The position numbers and the translations under genes are program-made. From positions 1-64,000 of the forward strand of contig CAIQIR010000072.1 of the NCBI GenBank assembly GCA_903871875.1: a stretch of 64,000 nucleotides of DNA, given 5' to 3'. The notes under the pieces are model-generated. The model had not been told where the DNA came from, ran no database searches, and saw only the letters and a program-made list of their open reading frames with translations. Source of the DNA: an uncultured Schlesneria sp. Lineage in GTDB: Bacteria > Planctomycetota > Planctomycetia > Planctomycetales > Planctomycetaceae. Positions 12,721 to 58,492 of this stretch are shown here, piece by piece (the stretch's first letter is position 1; each line of letters starts with the position of its first letter).

Positions 12721-13794
12721 TTGCAAGCTCAAATTGTTCTGCTGCCCGGTGATGGGATTGGCCCCGAAGTTGTCGCTCAGGGTGAGCGGGTATTGCTGGA
12801 TATTGCCAAGAGATTCGGACATACGTTCAAATTCACGACACACCTGATCGGCGGATGTGCCATTGATCAGTGTGGAAACCCACTGCCTGACGATACCTTG
12901 GCCGCTTGCAAAGCATCGCAGGCCGTGCTGCTGGGCGCTGTGGGCGGGCCTAAATGGGACGACCCGAACGCGAAAACGCGCCCCGAAGCCGGGCTGTTGA
13001 AAATCCGCAAGGAATTGGGCCTGTTCGCCAATCTTCGTCCCATTTTCGTTTCGCCACATCTCGTGTCGGCGTCACCACTGAAGACTGAAATCGTTTCGGG
13101 AACGGATATTCTCTTTTTCCGCGAATTGACGGGCGGGATCTACTTCGGTCCCTCGGGGAAAGAGACGATTCCCGGCGGCGAATCGGCCTTCAATACGATG
13201 GTTTACAGCACTCAGGAAGTTGAACGAATCGTTCGTCTGGCCGGTCAGGCCGCACGGGGGCGACGCAAGAAGGTCACTTCGGTCGACAAAGCCAACGTAC
13301 TGGAAGTGTCGCGGCTGTGGCGGAAGACGTTTGAGCGGGTCATGAAGACCGAATTTCCTGATGTGCAGTTTGAAAATGTGCTGGTTGATGCCATGGCCAT
13401 GCATCTGATTTCCAAGCCTCGAAGCTTCGATGTCGTCGTGACGGAAAACCTGTTTGGCGACATTTTGACGGATGAAGGATCGATGCTTCCCGGTTCCATG
13501 GGAATGCTGCCATCCGCTTCGATCGGTTCGTCCGGTCCTGGTTTATACGAACCGATCCACGGCTCGGCACCCGACATCGCCGGCAAGGGGATCGCAAACC
13601 CGCTCGCCACGATCCTGGCATCCGCGATGCTGTTGCGGCATTCGTTGAAATTGGAGGCCGAAGCGGCCTCCATCGAACAAGCGGTCGATCGGGTGCTGGC
13701 CAAGGGGCACCGCACGGCTGATCTGGCGGCCGGTGCGGCCAGTATCGGAACGTCCGAAATGGGATCGCTCGTTCTCGCCGAGCTCAATTCCTGA
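12721..13794 (+). CDS. leuB: 3-isopropylmalate dehydrogenase
   Basis: Oxidatively decarboxylates 3-isopropylmalate with NAD+ in leucine biosynthesis. The 357-residue protein has the family opening [12 protein letters not shown], the substrate-binding [21 protein letters not shown] segment (two overlapping pieces) and the metal-binding [19 protein letters not shown] motif. [17 protein letters not shown] is intact, and length is typical. The start codon is TTG at 12721, preceded by GGAAAGG. No other leu gene is adjacent: leuC lies at 28047-29453 on the other strand and leuA/leuD are not in the window. Confidence 0.93.
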
Positions 13795-13850
13795 GTGCGG
13801 GTGACCGATCGTATTCTGTAAGTGATCTTCCTCCATACTAGGACCATTTC

Positions 13851-14843
13851 ATGCCGAAGGTAGTTTGTACGGCGCTCAGTTCTGGCAGCGGACCGCATTT
13901 TGACATCCTGCAAAAGGCGGGTTTCGAAGTCGTGGAAGTTCGACGAGATGTCGACATTTACCAGGCCGCCAACCTGCTGCCCGCCGTGCGGGACTGCGTC
14001 GCCGTGATCGCCGGTTCAGAGCCGTGGACCGAAGAGTTGCTGGCCGGATGTCCTCAGCTTCGCGTGATTGCACGAACGGGGGTCGGTTTCGACGCCGTCG
14101 ACGTCGCCGCCTGCAATAAACGCCGGGTTGTGGTCGCAACGACTCCGGGCGTCAATCACCATGCGGTTGCCGAACACACGATCGCATTGCTGATGGGGGT
14201 CGCTCGACTCTTCCCCTCGCGAGATCATTTCGTGCGTACCTGTGACTGGCAGCGTTTTTCCTCGCCGCGCGTGATGGGCCGCACGATTGGCATTGTGGGT
14301 CTGGGCCGTATCGGCCGTGCGGTGGCAACACGTGCCGTGGGGCTCGGAATGCGGGTCGTGGCCTACGAGCCGTATCCGCAACGGGAATTCTGCGAACAGT
14401 GGAATGTCGAGTTGGCGTCGTTCGAAGACCTGCTTTCGCAATCGGACTATGTGACGTTGCACCTGCCGATGATGGCCGAAACAAAGCATGTGATGAACGC
14501 CAAAACCTTCGCGAAGATGAAGCAGGGTTCGATTCTGATTAATACCGCTCGCGGGTTGTTGGTAGACGAACCCGCATTGATCGAGGCGTTGAAATCGGGG
14601 CACCTGAGCGGCGCTGGCCTGGACGTGTTTGAAGTCGAGCCGCTACCCAGCACCAGTCCGTTGTTGAAAATGCACAATGTTCTGCTGAGTGGTCATCTGG
14701 CGGGTCTGGACGACGAGTCACAGCGTGATACACTGACAATGTGTGCTGACACAATTATCTCGCTGTCAAAAGGCGGGTGGCCGACCGAAGCGATCCGCAA
14801 TTTGGCCGGTGTCACCGATTGGAAATGGTCTGAAAAGGGCTGA
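13851..14843 (+). CDS. D-isomer-specific 2-hydroxyacid dehydrogenase (phosphoglycerate dehydrogenase-like)
   Basis: A 330-residue NAD-dependent dehydrogenase. It has the Rossmann motif GIVGLGRIGRAVATRA and the catalytic residues of the family: Arg in NTARGLLVDE, Glu in GLDVFEVEPLP and His in LLSGHLAG. It lacks the C-terminal ACT/regulatory domain of long SerA enzymes, so it could be phosphoglycerate dehydrogenase or another 2-hydroxyacid dehydrogenase. It follows leuB by 56 bp on the same strand, and the small Cys-rich gene begins 2 bp after its stop. The three may be co-transcribed. Confidence 0.85.
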   Translation: MPKVVCTALSSGSGPHFDILQKAGFEVVEVRRDVDIYQAANLLPAVRDCVAVIAGSEPWTEELLAGCPQLRVIARTGVGFDAVDVAACNKRRVVVATTPGVNHHAVAEHTIALLMGVARLFPSRDHFVRTCDWQRFSSPRVMGRTIGIVGLGRIGRAVATRAVGLGMRVVAYEPYPQREFCEQWNVELASFEDLLSQSDYVTLHLPMMAETKHVMNAKTFAKMKQGSILINTARGLLVDEPALIEALKSGHLSGAGLDVFEVEPLPSTSPLLKMHNVLLSGHLAGLDDESQRDTLTMCADTIISLSKGGWPTEAIRNLAGVTDWKWSEKG

Positions 14844-14845
14844 TC

Positions 14846-15064
14846 GTGACTGTCGATTGGCAATATGTCGTCGTTTTTGCTTGCGTCTTGTGGGCCGGAG
14901 CCGTGCTCATCCGGCGAAGCTATCGCCTGTTTCATGAACCGCAGGCAGGTGCCTGTGGTTCTGGCGGGTGCCACGGCTGCTCGTCGAATCCTGAGAAGAA
15001 GGCCTCCGGCCTGATTCAATTGCAGATTCCGGCAAGGCCGTCATCCCGTTCCGCTGCCGAGTAA
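14846..15064 (+). CDS. FeoB-associated-type Cys-rich single-pass membrane peptide
   Basis: A 72-residue protein with a GTG start two bases after the preceding stop. An N-terminal hydrophobic helix (WQYVVVFACVLWAGAVLI) is followed by basic residues and a Cys cluster ACGSGGCHGCSS. This layout resembles the FeoB-associated Cys-rich membrane family (PF12669), though no feoA or feoB is nearby. It could bind a metal or FeS centre near the membrane. The assignment is by pattern only. Confidence 0.55.
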   Translation: MTVDWQYVVVFACVLWAGAVLIRRSYRLFHEPQAGACGSGGCHGCSSNPEKKASGLIQLQIPARPSSRSAAE

Positions 15065-37814: not shown

Positions 37815-40800
37815 CTACTTCTGGTCGCGAACCTCACTCGGTGGCGGTATCAGTAATGTCGGGGGTGGGGCTGTGTCCCCCATCCAGATCTGTTGGCGTC
37901 CCGCCACTTTGGGGTCGACGATTGTCAGCGGGCGTTGGGCGAGAATTTGCGTCAGGATCGACCAATAAAGTTGCTGGCTGGTTAATTGCGGCTGTCGGAG
38001 GAATTCTGCGAAGAGGTTTTCGAATCTCTGCGCAGCCCCTGTCGCGGCCATTTCGCGACGAACGCTGGCCAAATGGCCCTCTGAAAGAATCGCCGCCGCT
38101 GATCCCGACAATCGGTTCTGTTTTTCGGGGTTTTCCGTAACCAGTTGTTGCCAAAGCTCATCGCTCAAATGCCAGTCGGTGCGGCTGGGAGAATTCGTCA
38201 CTTCGGGTGATTGCTTTTGGGCCGCGGACTGCAGGACCGCCAGGGCCTCGCTTCCGATGGCCGCCAACAACGTTCGCGATGCGTAGGCTTCGGCCTCATT
38301 GATCAATAATTCTCGCTCTTCCATTGCGTCGGCGACCTGCCGATAGGCCGGCACAACGGGTTGTGGAGGATGGACATCCAGCCACTGCAGGTCAACGACT
38401 TCAATTCCCAAGCCGTATTGTTCCAGCCGCTGCCGAAGCTTTTTCAGTGATTGTCGTTCGAGTTCGGCCCGTTGGTCAGTCAACAAGTTGTCCAGCGGTG
38501 CTCCGGCCGCGACCTCACGCAAGACACCTTCCGCGGTCGCCCGCAAGACGTCGTTCGGTCGTTGTGGGCCGGCGAAAACGAACTTGCGTAGATCGCGAAT
38601 ACAATATTGGACTTCGGCCATCAATTCGACCGGGACTTCGTCTGCCGTCAGCATGACAGATTCGTCAGCAATCGTGGCATGATCGGGATCGTCGTGTGAG
38701 CTTGTCCAATCGACCAGCGGAAGATTCTCAAGCGGTCGTGGTGCGCTCGACGCCAGCCCCAGGAAGCCGAATCGTCGTTTGTTCGTTTCCTCGCCGCTAC
38801 GATTCGAGAGCAAACGACTTTCGATGGATCGTGGGCCACGGTTGGTATTCGTTTCGTTCTGTTGTCGGTAACCAATGGCAACGCTGCGAATCAATCCCAT
38901 TTTTTCGCGGGTCAATTGCTCCAGGGGCCACGGCCAGCGCCAATGCATCCCCGCGGTGAGCGTGGTTTCAAAACGACCGAACCGGGTCACGACAGCTTGT
39001 TCGTCCTCGGTCAACAGTGCGATTCCCGAAACGAACCAGGCGGCGATGAAGGCCGCACCCGCGAGTTTGGCGGCCAGCCGCCACCGCGCGAGGCACCAGA
39101 AAACCCATTGCGACGGCGAGGCGTTAGCGGCCAACCAATCGGCGGTCGTCAACGTGCGGTCCAGCCAACGAACCGTTATCGACGACGACCAGCCTTCGAA
39201 CCAAAGCAGCCTCGTCGCGTTCGCCATCACGGCCAGCGACGCGATTTCGTGAAAGATCGCTCCGCCAATGGGATCCAGCCAACGTAGTGAACAGGCGAGA
39301 ACGCCCAGTCCATTCAGTCCGAATGCAAACAGCAAAATACTTTGCCAGATATTTTGCACCAGCGCTCGCGACAATCGGACGAGTCCAGGCAGGGGGCGCA
39401 AGGGATCGCCCAATAAAATAATATCGCCCGCCGACGCTGCCAGATCGCCTCCCGCTCGGCCCAATGCGAGTCCGACATCGGCTGACGCCAGAGCGGGGGC
39501 ATCGTTGATCCCGTCACCGACCATCGCCACCTTTCGTCCAGCTTGACGTGACGATTCAATCCAATGGGATTTGTCCGCTGGAAGTTGCTCGGTGGCCACG
39601 TATTCAAACAGACCAAGCGATTTCACCACGGTGTCCGCCGATTGCGGGCGGTCGCCAGTCAGCAAGGCGAAGTGGGAAATTCCGATTGCGCGTAATTCTT
39701 CTAAAACGTGCTGGGACTCGGGACGAATCGTTTCCCGTACACCAATGACGCCAATCACGACACCATCGACGGCCACCACCAATGGTGATTCACCTGCCGC
39801 TTCCCGCTCTTTCAGTAGCAGCGCCACATCCTGTGAAAACGCGATGTCACCCCGATCCAGAGCGCGGCGATTGCCCACCATGATCGCCGCCAACCGCGAA
39901 TTCGATTCGGTCATCTGTCCACTGCTCATCGGGACGTAGGCCGGGCGACCATCGATTTCGCCCGACAGTTCGTCGACGGGAATTCGGGCTGTCACCCCGG
40001 CCCCGGCAATGGCGTTGAATTCGGCCGGAAGCGGAACTGCCAGACCGCGTTCCTCGGCTGCCGTGACGAGAATCCTGGCCAGCAGATGCTCACTGTTCCG
40101 TTCGGCAATCGCGGCAACGCGAAGGATGGCATTGGCCGTCATCCCCGTCGTCGGAATGATTTCTCCGAGCGCCAACGCTCCCTGGGTCAACGTACCTGTC
40201 TTGTCGAACGCAAAGGTATCGACCGTCGCCAACCGTTCGAGCACAGCAGAGCCTTTGACCACAACTCCGCGTCGCGCCAGCCAGGCCAATGCGGCCATCA
40301 CTGCGCAAGGAGTCGCCAGGATCAATGGGCAAGGGCAGGCAACGACAAGCACGCCCAGGGCAGGCAAATAGCCGCTATTCCAGGAACCCGTCGCCACTCG
40401 CCAACCAACCAGGGTGGCTGCGGCGGCCGTCAGGACTGCGGGCAGAAACCATTTTGCCAGTCGATCCGCCGTTCGCTCCAATTCGGCTTTGCGTTTCGTG
40501 GCTGTGCCGACCAATTGGGCGACACGTGCGAGTGCCGTGTGATCGCCAATGGACTCGGCAACGATCGTCAGCGCACCGTGCTGGTTGAGCGTCCCTGCCA
40601 GTACTTTGTCGCCTGCCTCCTTATCAATCGGCAGACTTTCACCCGTGAACGGGCTTTGATCCACCACGGACGAACCGGCGACGACCTGCCCATCAACAGG
40701 GATCCGTTCGCCCGGTCGAACGGTGACGATATCGCCGACGCGAACGTCTTCGACGGGGATGTCCTGTTCGCGACCGTTCTCCTGGCGATGAGCGATTTCC

Positions 40801-41297
40801 GGCCAGAGGGCAAACGTCTGTCGTACGGCCCATCGTGCTCGATCGACCGTGTAACCTTCGATGCTTTCGCCAATCAGTGAGATCAGAACCACCAGCCCCG
40901 CCGTCTGATGCTCACCCAGGGCGATTGCTGCCAGGCATGCGAGCGTCAACGCGAGATCCGCTCCGACTCGTCCAGACAACAGGCCGTCGAGCGAATGGTA
41001 CAGGATCCGGGCGCCACCCAACACGGCGGCCAACAGGGCGAAACGATAACCAAACAGCGTCGCACCGGTGGTTGTAGAGGCGGAGAGCCCCCAATCGGCA
41101 ATCAGCAGTCCGGCAACGGACAGCGTCAACAGGTACAGAGGAGCCGATTGATAATGAAAGCTTGGCCGGGTCACGACACCGCAGGACGTGTCGCCCCGCA
41201 GCATTTCGGATGCCGATTCAGGAATGTAATGCATCTCACTCAATTCTCTCGCGGAAGCGCGACCGTAGATAGTGACACGCGCGCCGGGCGTTGCCAA
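37815..41297 (-). CDS. P1B-type heavy-metal ATPase fused to an HflK-like SPFH domain
   Basis: One uninterrupted 1160-codon frame with two unrelated parts. Residues about 50-700 are a P1B-type cation ATPase: TGES actuator motif (218-221), transport-site CPC (321-323, VVACPCPLILATP), phosphorylation site DKTGT with Asp365, GDGIND at 594-599, and the end helices HEIASLAVMANATRLL. It has no N-terminal HMA domain, and the usual SEHP motif reads SEHL. After a transmembrane helix (about 742-762), residues 763-1160 match HflK: VVTRFGRFETTLTAGMHW, ESVMLTADEVPVELMAEVQY, LLTDQRAELERQ and a helical end with LYWSILTQILAQRPLTIVDP. HflK normally pairs with HflC to regulate FtsH; no hflC is nearby. A second start at 41234 is possible. 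It lies 24 bp after the photolyase gene. Confidence 0.85.
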   Translation of the reverse strand: MATPGARVTIYGRASARELSEMHYIPESASEMLRGDTSCGVVTRPSFHYQSAPLYLLTLSVAGLLIADWGLSASTTTGATLFGYRFALLAAVLGGARILYHSLDGLLSGRVGADLALTLACLAAIALGEHQTAGLVVLISLIGESIEGYTVDRARWAVRQTFALWPEIAHRQENGREQDIPVEDVRVGDIVTVRPGERIPVDGQVVAGSSVVDQSPFTGESLPIDKEAGDKVLAGTLNQHGALTIVAESIGDHTALARVAQLVGTATKRKAELERTADRLAKWFLPAVLTAAAATLVGWRVATGSWNSGYLPALGVLVVACPCPLILATPCAVMAALAWLARRGVVVKGSAVLERLATVDTFAFDKTGTLTQGALALGEIIPTTGMTANAILRVAAIAERNSEHLLARILVTAAEERGLAVPLPAEFNAIAGAGVTARIPVDELSGEIDGRPAYVPMSSGQMTESNSRLAAIMVGNRRALDRGDIAFSQDVALLLKEREAAGESPLVVAVDGVVIGVIGVRETIRPESQHVLEELRAIGISHFALLTGDRPQSADTVVKSLGLFEYVATEQLPADKSHWIESSRQAGRKVAMVGDGINDAPALASADVGLALGRAGGDLAASAGDIILLGDPLRPLPGLVRLSRALVQNIWQSILLFAFGLNGLGVLACSLRWLDPIGGAIFHEIASLAVMANATRLLWFEGWSSSITVRWLDRTLTTADWLAANASPSQWVFWCLARWRLAAKLAGAAFIAAWFVSGIALLTEDEQAVVTRFGRFETTLTAGMHWRWPWPLEQLTREKMGLIRSVAIGYRQQNETNTNRGPRSIESRLLSNRSGEETNKRRFGFLGLASSAPRPLENLPLVDWTSSHDDPDHATIADESVMLTADEVPVELMAEVQYCIRDLRKFVFAGPQRPNDVLRATAEGVLREVAAGAPLDNLLTDQRAELERQSLKKLRQRLEQYGLGIEVVDLQWLDVHPPQPVVPAYRQVADAMEERELLINEAEAYASRTLLAAIGSEALAVLQSAAQKQSPEVTNSPSRTDWHLSDELWQQLVTENPEKQNRLSGSAAAILSEGHLASVRREMAATGAAQRFENLFAEFLRQPQLTSQQLYWSILTQILAQRPLTIVDPKVAGRQQIWMGDTAPPPTLLIPPPSEVRDQK

Positions 41298-45592: not shown

Positions 45593-46330
45593 TTCCGCGT
45601 GTGTACCAGGGGGGAACAACGCTTCAGCGACCCGAAGTCTGCGGTGAACACTTTTGATTCTGACTCGGATCGGTGGTTTCCGAAAACAGGAGATTTGAGC
45701 GAGGTGGAATCACCGCTGTCCACACGATCAACACACGAAGTCTGCCGTTGCCGAAGCGTGTTCTTCCGACTGGCCATCGACAGCCACTTTTGGGAATCCT
45801 CGGGTTCAAGGTGACTCCGGGATCAATCAAGCCTTTTGTCGATCAGAAATCGCATTAACTGCTGAAACGGGTGTTAAACATTCTTATCAATTTCGACCAA
45901 GACGGACGTCAATCATTCTGACGCCGTTGCGAATCGATCCGTCGACCGGCGACGACCGGTCTTCGTATCCGATCGCCAATCGGTCACAAAAACGACCCAT
46001 ACTGCTCGGCTAGACCCTCGTACAGAGCTTGAAAACGCCTGTTTTATAGGGAGAAATAACACCCTAAGGCCGATTGTCATGATTTTTGAAATTCGTCTGT
46101 ATTCAACTTTACAACGAAGGCAACCTGGGTAGTATGGAAAGTCACTACTTTCAGGCAGTTTCAGTGGTTTGGATACAGATTCTCAACACGATTTCGTTGT
46201 TGATTACGCGTGTTGACCATCGTCACGAAATTTTTTCGTGGTCGATCGTCATCCGGTCATTGGATTCTCCCGTTCGTTTTTCTGGCAACAGATTAGCAAT
46301 CGACGCGGATTTTGTCGGTTGACCGCACCA
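45593..46330. other. 740-bp divergent intergenic region upstream of the giant Ig protein
   Basis: No convincing gene. The short frames here lack family resemblance. The segment about 45990-46330 is more AT-rich than the surroundings and ends at the Ig-protein start, so it likely holds that gene's promoter and a long leader. No hairpin or direct repeat stands out. Confidence 0.4.
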
Positions 46331-49300
46331 ATGGAGACTTGCAACGTGTTGAGCACCTTCTATCGACTTTTGGGACTGTTGACCCCGGAACGGATCACTC
46401 GTCGACGCGTGCGGGCGTCGGCCTCAACAGTGGCGGCCTTGGTCGAAGAGCTTGAGTCTCGCAAGATGCTCAGCGCCATTACCATTAACACGAATCCGGT
46501 TAGCCAAAGCATCAACGCCGGAGAAACAGTGACATTTACGGCGACCGCCTCGGGGACGCCGACTCCGTCGCTTCAGTGGCAAATCAGCACCGATGGCGGA
46601 ACGACCTTCACGGATATCGCCGGTGCGACATCGACGCCCTACAGTTTCAATGTGACACCGAGCCAAAACGGATACGAATTCCGCGCCGAATTCACCAACT
46701 CGAGCGGTACCGTAACTACACAAGCCGCAACGCTGACGGTCTTGCCGATTCTCGTGACCACTCTGACAGACGAAAACAACGGCACGGTTGATCCCTCCTT
46801 TGGGACGGGTACCAGCCTGCGAGAGGCCATCAATTTCGCCGACAGCCAAAATGGCCCTCAGACGATCCAGTTTGCTGCTGGTCTGACCGGGTCAATCTTG
46901 TTAACGATGGGTGAATTGCCCGTGATCACCGGCAACGTCACGATCGATGGCCCTGGAGCCCCAAACCTGACGATCAATGGTCAAGGGACCAGCCGCGTGT
47001 TTGAAGTGGCGAGCGGCGCGACGGCCGATCTGATCGGCCTGACCATCGCCAATGGAAACGGAACAGGAGCCAACAGCGGAGACCTCGTCAATGGCGGAGG
47101 CATCCTGAACGCGGGGACGCTGACAATTGAAGAAAGCTCCCTGTCGGCCAATACGAACAGCGGCAATCCGAATCAAGGCAGTGGCTACGGCGGAGCCATT
47201 GATAACACCGGCACTCTGACCGTGATCAGCAGCACGTTTGCCTCGAACAATGTCTTGTCGGGAGACGGCGGCGGCATCGCCAACTTTGGCACACTGTCGG
47301 TGACGAACACCACCTTCTCCAGCAACGTGGCTGGATCCGGTGGTGCCATCGAAAACTTCGGCACGGCGACGGTGACTGACACCACCGTCTATAACAATAC
47401 CGTGGTGGGTGCTTCCTCGTTGGGTGCCGGCATTTTGAACCAGGGTGGATCGCTGTTGTTGAACAACACGATCGTCGATAGTCTCAATTCGGTCGGGACA
47501 GGCGCCGTGCTGAATGCGGCAAGTTCCCATAACTTGTTCGTGAACGGTGGCAACGGCGTGCCGACCAATGGAGTGAATGGGAATATCGTCGTTGCGTCTT
47601 CCGGCGCTCTCAACCTCGGTACCTTAGCCAATAACGGCGGTCCGACAACAACCGTCGCCGAATTGGCGGGCAGTCCGGCCATCGGAGCTGGTCTGGCGAA
47701 CGGCGTTTTGACGGATGAACGCGGTTACACGCGACACAGCACGCCCGATATTGGAGCCTTCGAGTTGGTGCCGACGGGAACGCTGGTCATCGTGACCAAT
47801 CCCGTCAGCCAGTCCGTCAACGCGGGACACACGGTCTCGTTTACGGCCGGAGCCAGCAGCAATCCGATCGCCACGGTCCAGTGGCAAGTCAGTACTGATC
47901 TCGGCGCCAGCTTCTCGAATATCATTGGTGCCACGTCGACCACCTACAGTTTCACCGCCACGCTGGGCCAGAGCAGCGATGAATATCGAGCCGTTTTCAC
48001 CAACAGCAGTACTAACGCCACGGCAACGACTCAAGCCGCGACTCTGACGGTGACCCCGGTGTCAGCGGCCCCCGTGATCACGTTGAATCCAACCAGCCAA
48101 AGTCTGGTCGTGGGACAAACGGTGACGTTTGCGGGAGCGGCCAGCGGAACTCCGACACCCACCGTCCAATGGCAGCTCAGCACGGATGGTGGCGTGACCT
48201 TCGCGAACATCACCGGCGCGACGTCAACGACCTACAGCTTCACGGCATCGCTTGCTCAGAACGGCGATGAGTACCGAGCGGTGTTCACCAACACTCAGGG
48301 AACGGCCACCACGTCCGCCGCGACTTTGTCGAATTCCTCGTTGTTGGCCCCTCCGGTCGTGACCTTGAATCCGTTAACTCAAAGCATTAACGCCGGCTTG
48401 CCTGTTTCGTTCACGGTGGCTGCCAGCGGCAGTCCTACGCCGACAGTACAATGGCAAGTCAGTACCGACGGAGGACTGACCTATGCAAACATCTCCGGCG
48501 CCACATCGACAACTTACAGTTTCACCGCGACCGGCGTTCAAGACGGCTTTGAATACCGAGCGATCTTCACGAATCTCGAAGGCACTGCCACAACGGCCGC
48601 AGCGTTTCTCTTCGTACAAACGGCCGCCGTTTCTCCTGTCGTCACGTTGAATCCCACAAGCCAAAGCGTTCCTCAGGGCAACACCGTCACGTTCACTGTT
48701 GCTGGCACTGGTAATCCCGCGCCAACGGTTCAATGGCAGATGAGCACCGACAACGGAGCGACATTTACAAATATCACCGGTGCGACCTCGACGAGTTACA
48801 GCTTCACTTCGGCCGCAAGTCAGAATGGCTATGAATATCGTGCCGTTTTCACCAATGCCATAGGCACCGCGACGACCACGGCCGCGATCTTGACCATTCT
48901 GCCGCCCTCGAATTTGCCCGTGATCACGTTGAATCCGACGAGTACCACCATCGTGACTGGGCAAACGGTCATCTTCACCGCCCTGGCCACCGGTTCGCCG
49001 TTCCCAACGGTCCAGTGGCAAGTCAGTACGGACCTGGGGCAATCGTTTAATAACATTCCTGGTGCGATCTCCCGACAATACAGCTTCACCGCGACATTGA
49101 GTCAGAGCAGCAACGAATATCGGGCCGTCTTTACCAATTCGAATGGCTCGACGTACACGACAGTCGCAACATTGATCGTGACGCCGCCAGCGCCACCGCT
49201 AGCTGCGCCGGTCATTACGCTCGATCCGATCAGCGAGTTCGTCTTTCCGAATGCAAGGGTCACATTCGCCGCACTTGCCTCTGGTAATCCGACACCCACC

Positions 49301-52000
49301 GTGCAGTGGCAAGTCAGTACGGATTTTGGAGCCTTCGTCAATATTCCCGGTGCGACATCGACGACACTCACCATCACCGCCCCCACCTCGGCCAGTATCT
49401 TTGAGTATCGAGCAGTCTTCACGAATTCACAGGGGACAGCGACGACCGCGGCAGCGTTTTTGGAAATTCAAATTCCGACCGCCGTTCCTGTCGTCACTAC
49501 GGATCCCTCGAATCTGACCGTCAATGCCGGCCAGACAGCGACCTTCACGGCCGCTGCCACTGGGGGACCGATTCCCACAGTGCAGTGGCAGGTCAGTACC
49601 GATGGCACCACATTTACGAATATTCCCGGTGCCACCTCGACGACTCTCAGTTTCGTCGCCACGGTTGCTGAGAACGGCTACAAGTATCAAGCCGTCTTTA
49701 CAAACGGGACGGGTACCACAAATACTGTGACGACGAAAGTCGCGACCTTGACGGTTCTCGGCGCGCCGGTGGTGATCACCAATCCGACCAGCCAAACGAT
49801 CATCGCGGGTCAATCGGTCACCTTCACGGCCGCGGGCGCAGGTAATCCCACGCCAACAGTGCAATGGCAAATCAGTACTGATGGGGGGGCGACCTTCACA
49901 GCCATCAGCGGGGCAACCACGGCGGCTTACACCTTTACCGTCGCAGCTGGCCAAAACGGTTACGAATATCAAGCGGTCTTCACGAACTCGGCCGGTGTCG
50001 CGACGACAAGTGCTGCCACTTTGACCATTGGGGTTGCTCCTGTTGTCACAATAAATCCTCTCAACCAGTCGGTCAATGCGGGACAGACAGTCACGTTTAC
50101 TGCCGCGGCGAGTGGCATTCCTGTTCCCACCGTTCAATGGCAAGTGGGGTCAGGTACCACATTTACCAACATCCCCGGTGCCACGTCGTTGACTTACAGT
50201 TTCGTCGCCCAGGCGACTCAAAACGGACTTCAATACCAGGCGGTCTTTACCAACTCACAAGGTGCCGCGACAACGACTGCCGCGACCCTCACGGTTTTCT
50301 CCGCACCGGTCATTACGACGAATCCCACGAACCAGGTTGTCGGAGTCGGGCAGACCGCGACATTCACGGCAGCAGCGGCCGGCAACCCCACTCCCACCGT
50401 TCAGTGGCAAGTCAGTGTCAACGGGCAGGCATTCACCAACATCACTGGTGCAACATCGGCAACGTACAGCTTTACGGTGGCTAACGGTCAAAACGGGTCC
50501 ATCTATCAGGCCGTCTTCACCAATTCAGCAGGTTCCGCAACAACCATTCCCGCGATATTGACGACGGTAGCGGCCCCCTTCATCACATTGAATCCCGTGG
50601 ATCAAAGCGTGATCGTGGGACAAACGGTCATCTTCACCGCTGCCGCCAGCGGTTTGCCAACTCCGACTGTTCAATGGCAAATTAGTATCGATGGTGGGAA
50701 CAGTTTCGCCAACATCTCTGGAGCGATTGCTTCAAATTATAGTTTCGTCGCGACCAGCAATCTAAATGGTGACATTTATCGGGCCGTGTTCCTGAATGCG
50801 TCGGGTGCGGCCGTTACGCTGAACGCGACATTGACCGTTTCGTCCGCGGCGTCCGGGTTGGCCGTGACCGGAAATCCACTGAGTCAGACTGTCACGGCAG
50901 GCAAGACGGTCACCTTTACGGCCGCGGCGGGAACATCCTCGTCAACCGGACATGTCGCGACCGCCAGTAGCGTACCCGCAGCGACGGTTCAATGGCAGAT
51001 TAGTACCAATGGAGGGGCGAGCTTCACAAACGTCGCCGGCGCGACATCGGCCACGCTCAACTTCACCACGACGGCCACTCAGAACGGAGATAAATTCCGT
51101 GCGGTGTTCACCAATTCCAAGGGATTTGTGACCACGACCGCGGCCACTCTGACGGTGGCTTCGAGCGGAATTCCTGTCGTCACCACAAATCCAACGAATC
51201 AGAGTGCGATTGCCGGCCATACCGTGACCTTCACGGCCGCGGCCAGTGGCAATCCCGCTCCGACGGTTCAATGGCAGATCAGTACCAATGGCGGAACGAC
51301 CTATACGAACATCTCCGGGGCCACGTCGACCACATTGAACTTCACCACGACGGCCACTCAGAACGGTGATCGATTCCGGGCCGTGTTCACCAATTCGCTC
51401 GGAAAAGTGACCACGACCGCGGCCACTCTGACGGTTACCGTGGCGACGGCTCCCGTCGTGACAACGAACCCGACCAATCAAAGTGCGATTGCCGGCCATA
51501 CCGTGACCTTCACGGCCGCGGCCAGTGGTAATCCCGCTCCGACGGTTCAATGGCAGATCAGCACCAATGGCGGAACGACCTATACGAACATCTCCGGGGC
51601 CACATCGGCCACATTGAACTTCACCACAACCCTCGCTCAAAATGGCGCGAAATTCCGAGCAGTCTTTACCAATGCACAAGGAACGATCACCACGACGGCG
51701 GCGACGCTGACGGTGACTGCTCCCGTGGCTCCCACGATCACGACGAATCCCACCAGCCAGACAGCGACAGCCGGCCATACCGTGACCTTCACCGCCGCGG
51801 CCAGTGGCAATCCGACTCCCACGGTCCAGTGGCAAATTAGTACTGACGGCGGAAAGACGTTTACGAACGTGTCTGGAGCAACGTCGCCGACGCTGAACTT
51901 CACCACGACGGCCGCAGAGAATGGCGACAAATTCCGAGCGGTCTTCACGAATCCACAAGGCACCGCGACAACGGCGGTGGTGACCCTCACGGTGCACTGA
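46331..52000 (+). CDS. giant secreted Ig-like repeat protein with choice-of-anchor Q/beta-helix insert
   Basis: About 1889 residues from the ATG at 46331. The N-terminus (RRRVRASASTVAALVEELES then RKMLSAI) fits the planctomycete extracellular motif of the Planc_extracel/LEPR-XLL kind found on huge surface proteins. One Ig-like module follows. Next comes a roughly 340-residue Asn/Gly-rich parallel beta-helix segment (46745-47775: TSLREAINFAD, GGGILNAGTLTIEESSL) closing with the choice-of-anchor Q ending (NNGGPTTTVAELAGSPAIGA, PDIGAFE). Then come fifteen tandem Ig-like modules of about 90 residues, each with TVQWQ(V/I)STDGG and (E/F)YRAVFTN cores. Total sixteen Ig-like copies. Almost no Cys. 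A cell-surface adhesive or structural role is inferred. No dedicated anchor is seen at the C-terminus, which ends on the last module. Confidence 0.85.
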   Translation: METCNVLSTFYRLLGLLTPERITRRRVRASASTVAALVEELESRKMLSAITINTNPVSQSINAGETVTFTATASGTPTPSLQWQISTDGGTTFTDIAGATSTPYSFNVTPSQNGYEFRAEFTNSSGTVTTQAATLTVLPILVTTLTDENNGTVDPSFGTGTSLREAINFADSQNGPQTIQFAAGLTGSILLTMGELPVITGNVTIDGPGAPNLTINGQGTSRVFEVASGATADLIGLTIANGNGTGANSGDLVNGGGILNAGTLTIEESSLSANTNSGNPNQGSGYGGAIDNTGTLTVISSTFASNNVLSGDGGGIANFGTLSVTNTTFSSNVAGSGGAIENFGTATVTDTTVYNNTVVGASSLGAGILNQGGSLLLNNTIVDSLNSVGTGAVLNAASSHNLFVNGGNGVPTNGVNGNIVVASSGALNLGTLANNGGPTTTVAELAGSPAIGAGLANGVLTDERGYTRHSTPDIGAFELVPTGTLVIVTNPVSQSVNAGHTVSFTAGASSNPIATVQWQVSTDLGASFSNIIGATSTTYSFTATLGQSSDEYRAVFTNSSTNATATTQAATLTVTPVSAAPVITLNPTSQSLVVGQTVTFAGAASGTPTPTVQWQLSTDGGVTFANITGATSTTYSFTASLAQNGDEYRAVFTNTQGTATTSAATLSNSSLLAPPVVTLNPLTQSINAGLPVSFTVAASGSPTPTVQWQVSTDGGLTYANISGATSTTYSFTATGVQDGFEYRAIFTNLEGTATTAAAFLFVQTAAVSPVVTLNPTSQSVPQGNTVTFTVAGTGNPAPTVQWQMSTDNGATFTNITGATSTSYSFTSAASQNGYEYRAVFTNAIGTATTTAAILTILPPSNLPVITLNPTSTTIVTGQTVIFTALATGSPFPTVQWQVSTDLGQSFNNIPGAISRQYSFTATLSQSSNEYRAVFTNSNGSTYTTVATLIVTPPAPPLAAPVITLDPISEFVFPNARVTFAALASGNPTPTVQWQVSTDFGAFVNIPGATSTTLTITAPTSASIFEYRAVFTNSQGTATTAAAFLEIQIPTAVPVVTTDPSNLTVNAGQTATFTAAATGGPIPTVQWQVSTDGTTFTNIPGATSTTLSFVATVAENGYKYQAVFTNGTGTTNTVTTKVATLTVLGAPVVITNPTSQTIIAGQSVTFTAAGAGNPTPTVQWQISTDGGATFTAISGATTAAYTFTVAAGQNGYEYQAVFTNSAGVATTSAATLTIGVAPVVTINPLNQSVNAGQTVTFTAAASGIPVPTVQWQVGSGTTFTNIPGATSLTYSFVAQATQNGLQYQAVFTNSQGAATTTAATLTVFSAPVITTNPTNQVVGVGQTATFTAAAAGNPTPTVQWQVSVNGQAFTNITGATSATYSFTVANGQNGSIYQAVFTNSAGSATTIPAILTTVAAPFITLNPVDQSVIVGQTVIFTAAASGLPTPTVQWQISIDGGNSFANISGAIASNYSFVATSNLNGDIYRAVFLNASGAAVTLNATLTVSSAASGLAVTGNPLSQTVTAGKTVTFTAAAGTSSSTGHVATASSVPAATVQWQISTNGGASFTNVAGATSATLNFTTTATQNGDKFRAVFTNSKGFVTTTAATLTVASSGIPVVTTNPTNQSAIAGHTVTFTAAASGNPAPTVQWQISTNGGTTYTNISGATSTTLNFTTTATQNGDRFRAVFTNSLGKVTTTAATLTVTVATAPVVTTNPTNQSAIAGHTVTFTAAASGNPAPTVQWQISTNGGTTYTNISGATSATLNFTTTLAQNGAKFRAVFTNAQGTITTTAATLTVTAPVAPTITTNPTSQTATAGHTVTFTAAASGNPTPTVQWQISTDGGKTFTNVSGATSPTLNFTTTAAENGDKFRAVFTNPQGTATTAVVTLTVH
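51203..51627 (+). repeat. near-identical adjacent Ig-module repeats (279-bp period)
   Basis: Modules 14 and 15 of the Ig-like protein share 146 bp (51203-51348 and 51482-51627) with only four mismatches by eye. Other modules differ much more. This marks a recent in-frame duplication or gene conversion within the array. Confidence 0.85.
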
Positions 52001-55045: not shown

Positions 55046-55309
55046 GACAAACTCCTTCTTGATTCAATCGTTACGAAATTCAAAACACCGTTGCCCGGTG
55101 ATCAGTTTCACGTTCTCAGACGATCGCATCGTTGCATCCGACACAGGGACATACCGGTCTCGTGCCCGACCCTTACACGAATTCGAGATTTTGTCCGTTT
55201 TTGTCTCGTCTCAGCCAAATTCCTCATGAATCTGCGGTGGCGCGTAAGGTTGTCTTGGCTCGCCGGTAGTTGCCTTCGTGAATCGGTCACTCTTACGAAG
55301 GATGAAATC

Positions 55310-58300
55310 ATGTGGATCGTTAAGCTGGCCTTGAAGAGTCCTTATACATTCGTCGTCATGGCCATGTTGATCGTGGTTCTGGGCGCCACTTCGATCAGCC
55401 AGATGCGGACCGATATCTTTCCGGAAATCGATATTCCCGTGGTCACCATGATCTGGACCTATAAAGGAATGGAAACCAGCGAGGTCGAGCGACGGATCAC
55501 CACCTATTCCGAATACGCCGTCACTTCGAATGTCAACGACATCAAGCGTGTCGAATCTCAAACGCTGAACGGAGTGTCCGTCATCAAGATTCACTTTCAC
55601 CCGGGAGTGAATATCGGCACGGCTCTTTCCCAGGTCACCTCGGTCGGCCAGTCGATTCGCGCCTTGATGCCGCCGGGGACTCAGCCGCCAATCATCATCC
55701 GCTTTAACGCGTCGAGCGTACCGATTCTGCAAATCGGCTTGAGCAGTCAGACCATGTCGGAAGAAGAGGTCTATGACTATGGCCTGTACGTCCTGCGAAC
55801 ACAGCTTTCGACCGTTCAGGGGCTGACAATGCCCACTCCTTACGGCGGACGGGAACGTCAAGTGATGGTCGATATCGACCCCCAGTTGCTGCAAGCCAAA
55901 GGCATCTCACCGAAGGAAGTGGCAGATGCAATCACGGCCTACAATCTGGCCTATCCGACTGGCGTGGCTCGCATCGATACTCACGAATATCCGGTCACCC
56001 TGAACAATACTCCGCTCACTCCAGAAAGCTTCAACCACATTCCGATCAAAGTCGTCGGAAACGCGACGATTTACATGCGCGATGTTGCTCAGGTTCGCGA
56101 TGGCAGCACGTCGCAGTCGACTGTTGTTCGCCGTAACGGCGAGCGCGGGGCACTCGTGACGCTGCTGAAGAATGGCAACGCCTCGACCCTGGATATCGTG
56201 AACCAAGTCAAAAAGATCATGCCGCAGATCAAAGCTGCGGCTCCGGCGGATCTGAAAATCGATCTCTTGTTCGATCAATCGATCTTTGTAACGGCCGCCA
56301 TCGAAGGGGTCGTCAGTGAAAGCCTGATCTCTGGCCTGCTGACCGCCGCCATGATCCTGATTTTTCTTGGCAGTTGGCGCAGCACGTTGATCGTCGCGGT
56401 CTCAATTCCGCTGGCGATCTTGTCGTCGATCGTGATGCTGTATCTGCTGGGGCACTCACTGAATGTGATGACTCTCGGTGGTTTGGCGCTGGCGGTGGGA
56501 ATTCTGGTGGATGACGCGACAGTCGAAATCGAAAACATTCACCGCAATCTCGGATTGGGCAAACCCTTGCGACAGGCGATCCTTGATGGGGCCATGCAAA
56601 TCGCCGGTCCGACCTTCGTGTCGACTCTGACGATCAGCATCGTCTTCGTCTCGGTACTGTTTCTGGATGGTCCACCCAAATACCTGTTTACGCCGCTGGC
56701 CCTGGCCGTGGCGTTTGCCATGCTGGCGTCGTACCTGCTTTCGCGAACGATTGTGCCCACGATGGTCGATTACCTGTTACCCGCCGAACTGAACGGTCAC
56801 TCGCACACCGCCGGGGCTGACGCTGATGATCGATCTGAACCGCGGGGCTGGTTTGCCCGGTTGCATCAGGGATTTGAACGCGGGTTCGAACGGTCGCGCG
56901 ACGCCTATGCCGCACTGCTCGATTGGAATCTGACTCATCGCAAAACGGTCTTCGGATTGTTCACGGGCGTCGTGGTCAGCGGAATTGTGGTTTTGCCCTG
57001 GGTGGGACGAGACTTCTTCCCCACCGTCGACACCGGCCAATTCCGACTGCACGTGAGATCGCCTGCCGGGACGCGCATCGAGCAAACCGAGCGTGACTTC
57101 AGCCAGGTGGAAAATGCGATCCGGGAAACAATTCCCGCAACAGAAGTGGAATTGATCCTGGACAACATCGGCCTACCGAATCGGACCTATGCCATGGCAT
57201 TTGGCGACAGCGCAACGACTGGAATGGCAGACGGGGAAATTCTGGTGGCGCTCAGGCATCATCGGACGCATTCGACTCCGGAATACATCGCCAAGTTGAG
57301 ACAAGATTTGCCTCGCCGGTTTCCTCATTTGACCTTCTTTTTTCAGCCGGCTGATATCGTCAGCCAGATCTTGAACTTTGGTCTGCCCGCTCCGATCGAT
57401 ATTCAAATCGCCGGCCTGAGTCGTCAGGCGAATTACCAAATGGCCACGGAAATCGCTGACCAAATTCGGCAGATTCGTGGCGTGCAGGACGTCCATTTGC
57501 ACCAGGTCATGAACGTTCCCAAGCTGCATGTCGAGGTCGATCAAACCCGAGCCCGCGAATTAGGCCTGACTCAGCAAGACGTGGCGAACAGCCTGCTGGT
57601 GTCGTTGTCGGGCAGTGGGCAAGTGCAACCGAACTATTGGGTCGATCCAAAGATGGGAATCTCGTACCTTGTTGAAGCGCGGACCCCGACCTATCAGCTG
57701 GATAGCGTCGAATCGATCAATGGCTTGCCTTTGACTTCCCAGTGGTCAGCCGGAGTGCATCTGCTGTCCAACGTGGCCACTGTCGAACGTGGTGTGACTT
57801 CGGAAGTGGCCAATCATACAAACGTGCAGCCGACGTTTGATGTTTATGCCAATGTGCAGGCTCGCGACCTGGGCAGCGTGGCGGATGAAATCAATCGGCT
57901 GTTGGAAATCTACCGTGCCAAACTCGCTCCCGGTAATACCATCGTGATGCGAGGCCAGGTGGAAAGCATGGAATCGGCCTTCTTCCGACTTGGATTAGGG
58001 CTGATCTTCGCTGCAGTGCTGGTGTATCTGCTGATGGTCGTCAACTTTCAAAGTTGGTTGGATCCATTCATCATCATCACGGCGTTGCCCGGAGCTTTCG
58101 TCGGGATCGTCTGGTCGCTGTTCCTCTGGCAGACAACGTTCAGTGTGCCGGCTCTGATGGGAGCCATCATGTCGATCGGCGTGGCAACCGCGAACAGTAT
58201 CCTGCTGGTGACGTTTGCCAACGAACAATTGGCGGAAGGCAAATCGGTTTTCCAATCCGCACTCGAAGCGGGTCGGACGCGAATGCGTCCCGTGTTGATG

Positions 58301-58492
58301 ACGGCAGCGGCGATGATCATCGGCATGTTACCCATGTCATTGGGGCTGGGTGAAGGGGGCGAGCAGAATGCGCCGCTGGGGCGAGCCGTTATCGGTGGTC
58401 TCTTCGTCGCGACGCTGACGACGCTGTTATTTGTACCGGTCGTCTTCAGTACGCTGCGTCGGGATCAGGTGACATCGTCGGATCGCGCCTAA
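55310..58492 (+). CDS. RND efflux transporter permease (AcrB/MdtB-like)
   Basis: 1060 residues from the ATG at 55310 (AAGGATG upstream). The open frame extends further 5' but is not protein-like there. The layout is standard for RND pumps: helix 1 (YTFVVMAMLIVVLGATSI), large porter loop, helices 2-6, second loop, helices 7-12. The proton-relay Asp pair of helix 4 is present in ILVDDATVEIEN. The helix-10 Lys of AcrB (AKNAIL context) aligns with Ala in VATANSILLV. It exports substrates together with the adaptor 211 bp downstream. An outer-membrane channel gene is not in the window. Substrate unknown. Confidence 0.9.
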   Translation: MWIVKLALKSPYTFVVMAMLIVVLGATSISQMRTDIFPEIDIPVVTMIWTYKGMETSEVERRITTYSEYAVTSNVNDIKRVESQTLNGVSVIKIHFHPGVNIGTALSQVTSVGQSIRALMPPGTQPPIIIRFNASSVPILQIGLSSQTMSEEEVYDYGLYVLRTQLSTVQGLTMPTPYGGRERQVMVDIDPQLLQAKGISPKEVADAITAYNLAYPTGVARIDTHEYPVTLNNTPLTPESFNHIPIKVVGNATIYMRDVAQVRDGSTSQSTVVRRNGERGALVTLLKNGNASTLDIVNQVKKIMPQIKAAAPADLKIDLLFDQSIFVTAAIEGVVSESLISGLLTAAMILIFLGSWRSTLIVAVSIPLAILSSIVMLYLLGHSLNVMTLGGLALAVGILVDDATVEIENIHRNLGLGKPLRQAILDGAMQIAGPTFVSTLTISIVFVSVLFLDGPPKYLFTPLALAVAFAMLASYLLSRTIVPTMVDYLLPAELNGHSHTAGADADDRSEPRGWFARLHQGFERGFERSRDAYAALLDWNLTHRKTVFGLFTGVVVSGIVVLPWVGRDFFPTVDTGQFRLHVRSPAGTRIEQTERDFSQVENAIRETIPATEVELILDNIGLPNRTYAMAFGDSATTGMADGEILVALRHHRTHSTPEYIAKLRQDLPRRFPHLTFFFQPADIVSQILNFGLPAPIDIQIAGLSRQANYQMATEIADQIRQIRGVQDVHLHQVMNVPKLHVEVDQTRARELGLTQQDVANSLLVSLSGSGQVQPNYWVDPKMGISYLVEARTPTYQLDSVESINGLPLTSQWSAGVHLLSNVATVERGVTSEVANHTNVQPTFDVYANVQARDLGSVADEINRLLEIYRAKLAPGNTIVMRGQVESMESAFFRLGLGLIFAAVLVYLLMVVNFQSWLDPFIIITALPGAFVGIVWSLFLWQTTFSVPALMGAIMSIGVATANSILLVTFANEQLAEGKSVFQSALEAGRTRMRPVLMTAAAMIIGMLPMSLGLGEGGEQNAPLGRAVIGGLFVATLTTLLFVPVVFSTLRRDQVTSSDRA

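Follow-up and report, generated by a model that had tools for sequence, protein, structure and literature searches.

A single gene on the minus strand of a contig from an uncultured Schlesneria sp. (positions 37,815 to 41,297) encodes a P1B-type heavy-metal ATPase continued, in the same chain, by an HflK-type SPFH protein, and this fusion recurs in related genomes together with genes for two further SPFH proteins, HflC and HflK2. The gene lies in a window of 64,000 nucleotides (GenBank assembly GCA_903871875.1, contig CAIQIR010000072.1, positions 1 to 64,000), which is the whole stretch of DNA analysed here and lies on contig C72 of the 7.6-Mb genome. On balance, we favour the view that the fused chain is a P1B heavy-metal pump forming one of the subunits of an HflK/HflC-like SPFH assembly, a placement already proposed in the first-pass annotation of this DNA.

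A P1B-type ATPase and an HflK-type SPFH protein in one frame

The minus-strand frame 37,815..41,297 has no internal stop and codes for 1160 residues when read from a TTG codon (1168 residues from stop to stop), with domain matches on both sides of the junction, which bears out the earlier description of one frame open through a P1B pump and an HflK-type SPFH protein; the family motifs named there (CPC, DKTGT, GDGIND and an LTIVDP-type end) are all present. The TTG at 41,297 is 21 codons upstream of an ATG at 41,234 (residue 22), which opens the motif MHYIPES. Since MHYxPES is conserved across the aligned fusions (19 of 19 share all of M, H, Y, P, E and S; over a wider set of 34, M, Y and P never vary and H, E and S reach at least 90%), this ATG is most likely the true start, giving a protein of 1139 residues. 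The motif is present in 43 of the 55 named loci in which a fusion was called, although truncated fusions are among them. The features of the gene are listed below, with residues numbered along the 1160-residue frame unless they are given in MHY numbering (TM, transmembrane helix).

37,815..41,234, minus strand: fusion gene, P1B-type ATPase, TM9 and HflK-type SPFH protein (1139 residues from the ATG)
39,192..41,234, minus strand: P1B ATPase part (residues 22-702)
40,329..40,337, minus strand: CPC metal-site motif in TM6 (residues 321-323; C300, P301 and C302 in MHY numbering, invariant in 34 of 34 fusions)
40,191..40,205, minus strand: DKTGT phosphorylation motif (residues 365-369; invariant in 34 of 34)
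39,501..39,518, minus strand: GDGIND motif (residues 594-599; GDGxND invariant in 34 of 34)
39,237..39,254, minus strand: FHExxS in TM8 (F682, H683, E684, S687)
39,009..39,179, minus strand: junction, predicted linker helices with a conserved S-P, then TM9 (residues 707-763)
38,283..39,008, minus strand: SPFH/Band_7 domain (residues 764-1005)
37,815..38,282, minus strand: HflK-type C-terminal helices and LTIVDP-type end (residues 1006-1160)

Three Pfam domains score above their cut-offs (E1-E2_ATPase, 165-343; Hydrolase, 359-607; Band_7, PF01145, 764-1005, with 78.1 bits against a cut-off of 23.6), and the NCBIfam family ATPase-IB_hvy (TIGR01525) reaches 508 bits against 346.25. Eight ATPase TM helices were recognized by hydropathy and in a model, hydropathy also flagging two segments of the cytosolic domains. 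Family score, domains, motifs and the eight helices together identify this part as a P1B-type heavy-metal ATPase, with transport as its predicted activity. Residues N641 in TM7 and F661, H662, E663 and S666 in TM8 (MHY numbering) are invariant in 34 of 34 fusions, and the FHExxS of TM8 plus N662 of TM7 (1160-residue numbering) are candidate metal ligands. The stretch right after TM8 is poorly conserved among the aligned fusions; the C-terminal part has a mean column identity of 43% (34 fusions), and its fold matches the SPFH domains of HflK and stomatin. As the NCBIfam hflK family (TIGR01933) scores 149.6 bits, just under its curated cut-off of 159.4, we name this part HflK-type and not HflK.

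Recurrence of the fusion

A search of other genomes for both domains in one gene, as suggested by the first-pass annotation, was performed with a profile of TM7-TM8 plus the SPFH part, calling a fusion where the match starts in the ATPase and continues into the SPFH part. The fusion was found in 52 of 99 related genomes, distributed over five family-level groups of the class (f1, 35; f3, 11; f2, 4; f6, 1; f8, 1), with all 15 genomes of the genus, which belongs to f1, carrying it. The fused frame is longer than 1000 residues except in G002, G026 and G033, whose gene is split over two contigs. A sequencing artefact (frameshift or hidden stop) is ruled out as the origin of the join: a stop concealed between residues 700 and 750, the refutation once envisaged, is very unlikely because independently assembled genomes share the same open junction.

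A scan of named genome contigs with planctomycete peptide patterns, within whose reach distant fusions do not fall, returned 57 loci, titled as planctomycete except for two called only 'bacterium'; 55 carry a called fusion, and L069 and L095, where no single fused gene was called, were set apart, both having HflC and HflK2. In 294 genomes from across the phylum, few of those listed being from the same class as the window, the fusion appears, among the matches listed, in the own genome, G039 and G253, the last lying outside the class. In a plasmid collection, the SPFH part of the window matches 57 records (30 listed, at 22.5-28.3% identity, with 27 annotated hflK). The 1595-residue frame of L122 had looked like a triple fusion, a possibility ruled out by the extra N-terminal stretch being an open frame ahead of an MHYLPES start.

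No description of the fusion was found in the open-access literature searched, and the words 'P-type' and 'ATPase' are absent from a study of SPFH evolution (PMC2636767).

HflC and HflK2 partners of the fusion

With all frames considered, 35 of the 55 named loci have both an HflC-type and an HflK2-type gene on the strand of the fusion, 2 have only one of them and 18 have none (a simple gene caller gives 29, 8 and 18 for the same loci); in 6 of these 18 the stretch stops no more than 80 bases past the fusion. For L039-L041 and L044, which are close relatives, the HflC/HflK2 pair is directly upstream of the fusion. At the window locus the neighbours are a photolyase gene upstream and an unknown frame of 141 residues downstream, with no SPFH gene adjacent. 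The earlier remark that no hflC lies beside the gene thus holds for the window but not for the genome, where the search for hflC elsewhere located an HflC/HflK2 pair on contig C68 that is 80% (HflC) and 69% (HflK2) identical to that of L039. A fusion with the upstream photolyase was also considered and ruled out, the photolyase being a separate gene with its own stop.

An HflC ortholog is present in 15 of 15 genomes of the genus, the own genome included, at 68-100% identity to the own copy; 8 of the 15 have it on a different contig from the fusion and, where checked, not adjacent to it. An HflC profile was matched in 36 of 52 fused versus 0 of 47 non-fused genomes at E ≤ 1e-100, in 48 versus 3 at E ≤ 1e-58 and in 51 versus 18 at E ≤ 1e-20, counts for which Fisher's p is not to be read literally, the genomes being related and the profile having been made from the HflCs of fused operons, a bias towards fused genomes at the strict limits. 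Some non-fused genomes with HflC have an unfused operon, e.g. G073.

In L050, a rhomboid-family gene (13,719-14,948, plus strand) directly follows fusion, HflC and HflK2, and several related loci have a gene of comparable length in that place.

Unfused HflK1-HflC-HflK2-ATPase operons

The own genome also has an unfused arrangement: at the end of contig C18 (L107), HflK1 (568 residues before the contig breaks off), HflC, HflK2 and, as a chain of its own, a P1B ATPase (640 residues) are encoded in overlapping order. An ATPase and three SPFH types thus stand together on C18 in unfused form and in 35 of the 55 named loci in fused form, but not at the window locus. The gene order of G073 (L106) is that of C18, and in G290 the ATPase stands first. 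In the plasmid collection, tblastn with the Klebsiella ATPase (E ≤ 1e-100) and with its HflK1 (E ≤ 1e-10) returned the identical 10 records, and the order HflK1-HflC-HflK2-ATPase was observed in 8 of 8 proteobacterial plasmid loci opened out of those 10. The earlier statement that P-type pumps and HflK-type proteins are not normally joined was consequently overstated: pump and hfl genes adjoin on C18, in the eight plasmid loci and in the hmtA locus of Pseudomonas aeruginosa (described below), besides being fused in more than half of the relatives.

Near the unfused operons are genes for a copper chaperone PCu(A)C (Paraburkholderia, L127) and a NicO-type protein (G073, L106). The HflK1-HflC-HflK2 triples of L105 and L106 are near transglutaminase-type genes, and L106 further has genes for a MoxR-type AAA ATPase and an ArsP_1-type permease in its vicinity. 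In TM6 of the L107 and L106 ATPases, CPG replaces CPC, a possible change of cargo or loss of transport; CPC is kept in the operon ATPases of G290 and of the three proteobacteria compared. A further heavy-metal-type ATPase of the own genome (contig C10, L138) has TPC at this position.

Seven of the eight plasmid-locus HflC proteins have at least 7 histidines within 30 residues near the N-terminal end, five of the eight loci being from Rhizobium and so not independent, and the tail of the HflC partner of the fusion in L112 (5487-6911, minus strand) has 22. In the plasmid-locus proteins the His-rich stretch is expected to face the cytosol. Very His-rich HflC N-tails beside P1B ATPases or a fusion occur in L112, L125-L127 and L148-L151.

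Trees of the ATPase and SPFH parts

Two quick trees were constructed. In the ATPase tree, 24 fused sequences constitute one side of a branch with a support of 87 (99 without the distant G253), six unfused operon ATPases are on another branch (support 100), and E. coli ZntA and CopA fall with neither set. In the SPFH tree, one HflK2 line (support 81) contains genes of fused and of unfused operons, and one HflC line (support 100, with E. coli HflC) likewise holds both kinds, except for one misplaced long row (L077_p1 was retained as such); thirteen neighbours, including L112_p1 (later shown to be HflC-type), and a further own-genome Band_7 protein (C142) were left out of this tree.

Judged by these sequences, fused and unfused systems share two of three SPFH types and differ in the pump and in the third SPFH protein. 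The difference is such that joining the two may be a separate way of achieving the same coupling.

The pump as a proposed subunit of an SPFH assembly

When a pump is fused to an HflK-type subunit in one lineage and genes of these kinds are neighbours elsewhere, this usually points to a physical complex. We accordingly regard the fused chain as a pump-bearing SPFH subunit that would assemble with HflC and HflK2, a reading which we consider reasonably probable. We infer the following arrangement. The eight TM helices would leave the end of the ATPase in the cytosol and the ninth helix would then carry the chain out; as in HflK, the SPFH domain would thus be periplasmic, together with its long helices. 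The fused chain would replace one HflK-type subunit and co-assemble with the HflC-type and the second HflK-type partner (here from contig C68), so that several pumps would be tethered round the base of a single SPFH ring or cage, moving metal between the cytosol and the space beneath it. By analogy with the hmtA locus the cargo is probably zinc or copper, and the direction could be either import, which has been claimed for HmtA, or the export typical of P1B pumps. More tentatively, the fused chain, HflC and HflK2 might constitute an SPFH cage that has many P1B pumps lining its base and encloses a closed periplasmic metal chamber; the proteobacterial hmtA-linked Hfl proteins might then be the same machine made from separate chains, to which metal would be fed from the cytosolic side by the His-rich tails of HflC. 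Cages of HflK/HflC are known to house a protease, and SPFH proteins to organise membrane patches; a pump-SPFH chain recurring across a bacterial class is evidence from nature that a P-type ATPase can serve as a functional component of an SPFH assembly.

Several observations weigh against a pump-bearing subunit, beginning with the fact that co-assembly is deduced from genes. Twelve of the 55 named loci are without a partner although the stretch runs past the fusion (3 of the 12 are cut upstream), and G028 (78% complete) carries the fusion yet gives no HflC match. Fused and unfused operon ATPases are two separate clades, their sisterhood not being recovered, and the fused SPFH sequences form no clade with HflK1. 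Among five unfused planctomycete SPFH triples, two (L105 and L111) have no ATPase in the stretch read, and the order in L121 differs. No metal gene was observed among the few annotated neighbours of the fused operons, and counts of 8-letter words upstream of 43 fused operons identified no regulatory site: the best word is present in 12 of 43, versus a shuffle maximum of 7, and by eye such words trace one group of related loci. With regard to the His-rich tails, 46 of 48 HflC-type genes from planctomycete loci have at most one histidine in the tail (L095 has 4), and the HflC partner of the own genome has one. As for the hmtA analogy, hmtA mRNA was described as constantly low, without zinc repression (PMC8531726), and Zur binding as found for zinc-uptake promoters, hmtA excepted (PMC10393844, a review).

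The alternative that survives best, though we think it rather unlikely, is that the SPFH part is only a tag for localization or stability, keeping the pump in a microdomain or shielding it from FtsH, with transport independent of any assembly. SPFH proteins are said to organise membrane microdomains and to partner FtsH (PMC13220708), and metal pumps can be clustered by other scaffolds, as PacL1 does with CtpC, flotillin being unneeded (PMC9374683). Nevertheless, the C-terminal part of the fusion stays conserved at the identity given above, the HflC partner is retained even where it is unlinked, and the His-rich tails seen in part of the HflC proteins suggest that metal is handled on the SPFH side.

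A second alternative, which we consider improbable, is that the fusion allows the metal level to control FtsH, the pump domain sensing or delivering metal to this zinc protease and the SPFH part gating proteolysis. It is close to the published reading that ties the hmtA-linked Hfl genes PA2437-2439 to FtsH (PMC9431628, PMC11761036), and the search for ftsH in the own genome gave two full ftsH-type frames (contigs C149 and C120) and a short third match; however, no ftsH is listed in the annotated plasmid stretches, no systematic search having been made around the fusions, and the coupling to FtsH-type proteolysis that the first-pass annotation had offered as one use of the fusion finds no support in our data. 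Finally, the halves might be joined only for co-expression, the chain being cut after synthesis and its parts acting separately, as the poorly conserved stretch after TM8 and the rhomboid-protease gene adjoining the L050 operon would allow, but the conserved S-P and predicted helix pair at the junction, and a join recurring in five family-level groups, make this the least probable explanation of all.

Other features of the window

Elsewhere in the window, on the plus strand, are a frame of 1920 residues with immunoglobulin-like matches (46,238-51,997; Ig_3 in 12 stretches, I-set in 9), here in a planctomycete, and an RND-type efflux pump (55,091-58,489; ACR_tran, 672 bits), after which more frames follow.

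Comparison with known systems

In the E. coli HflK/HflC-FtsH complex (7wi3, 9cz2, 7vhq), HflK has an N-terminal tail of about 75 residues before its TM helix, whereas the fusion has a whole P-type ATPase at this place. Compared with the P1B structures (7qbz, cadmium-translocating; 4umv, zinc-transporting; 7r0g and 3rfu, copper-transporting), the fusion has TM9 and the SPFH part added, and, in contrast to P1B ATPases of known structure, no N-terminal metal-binding domain is reported by Pfam. Its TM8 motif FHExxS is replaced by LADTGAT in E. coli ZntA, by MALSS in CopA and by LHN in the Klebsiella, Rhizobium and Paraburkholderia operon ATPases.

The proposed arrangement resembles the PacL/CtpC platforms of Mycobacterium tuberculosis, in which a P1B pump is held in a membrane assembly by an adjacently encoded scaffold, but PacL1 is a DUF1490 protein and its foci form without flotillin (PMC9374683). 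The title of PDB entry 9zd2 names aquaporin 1 bound to stomatin, another case of an SPFH protein with a membrane transport protein.

The gene order resembles that of the P. aeruginosa hmtA locus, PA2434-PA2439, in which PA2439 belongs to the HflK family, PA2438 is HflC, PA2437 belongs to the HflC family and PA2435 is HmtA (PMC4542158). Like the plasmid operons, this locus encodes a metal ATPase along with three Hfl-family proteins, and by the published gene order the HflK-type gene comes first; unlike the window gene, the hmtA locus encodes separate chains, with PA2436 between the Hfl genes and hmtA. In a znuA mutant its genes were upregulated 5.6- to 14.4-fold, the putative Zur site being no more than weak (PMC4542158), its proteins were raised by zinc depletion, significance being stated for PA2438 and PA2439 (PMC11761036), PA2437-2439 were slightly upregulated with N-acetylcysteine and listed with the zur regulon (PMC9431628), and Zur shifts the PA2439 promoter (PMC8531726). 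HmtA-mediated import was said to still need confirming (PMC10393844), and no physical HmtA-Hfl complex is proposed in the extracts of the literature that mention both HmtA and HflK. Because the ATPase clades are separate and the fused SPFH parts do not fall with HflK1, we treat the analogy as one of arrangement and not of proven orthology: the fused system may work like an HmtA-type cluster, without being HmtA.

A zinc-responsive neighbourhood of a pump beside SPFH genes, the latter read as FtsH modulators, was thus already known; the pump and the SPFH protein in one chain, and the complex that such a fusion would imply, were not found in the open-access literature searched. The fusion offers a concrete reading of the presence of three Hfl-family genes with that of the zinc/copper ATPase HmtA, and makes this hmtA-hfl puzzle testable with one gene.

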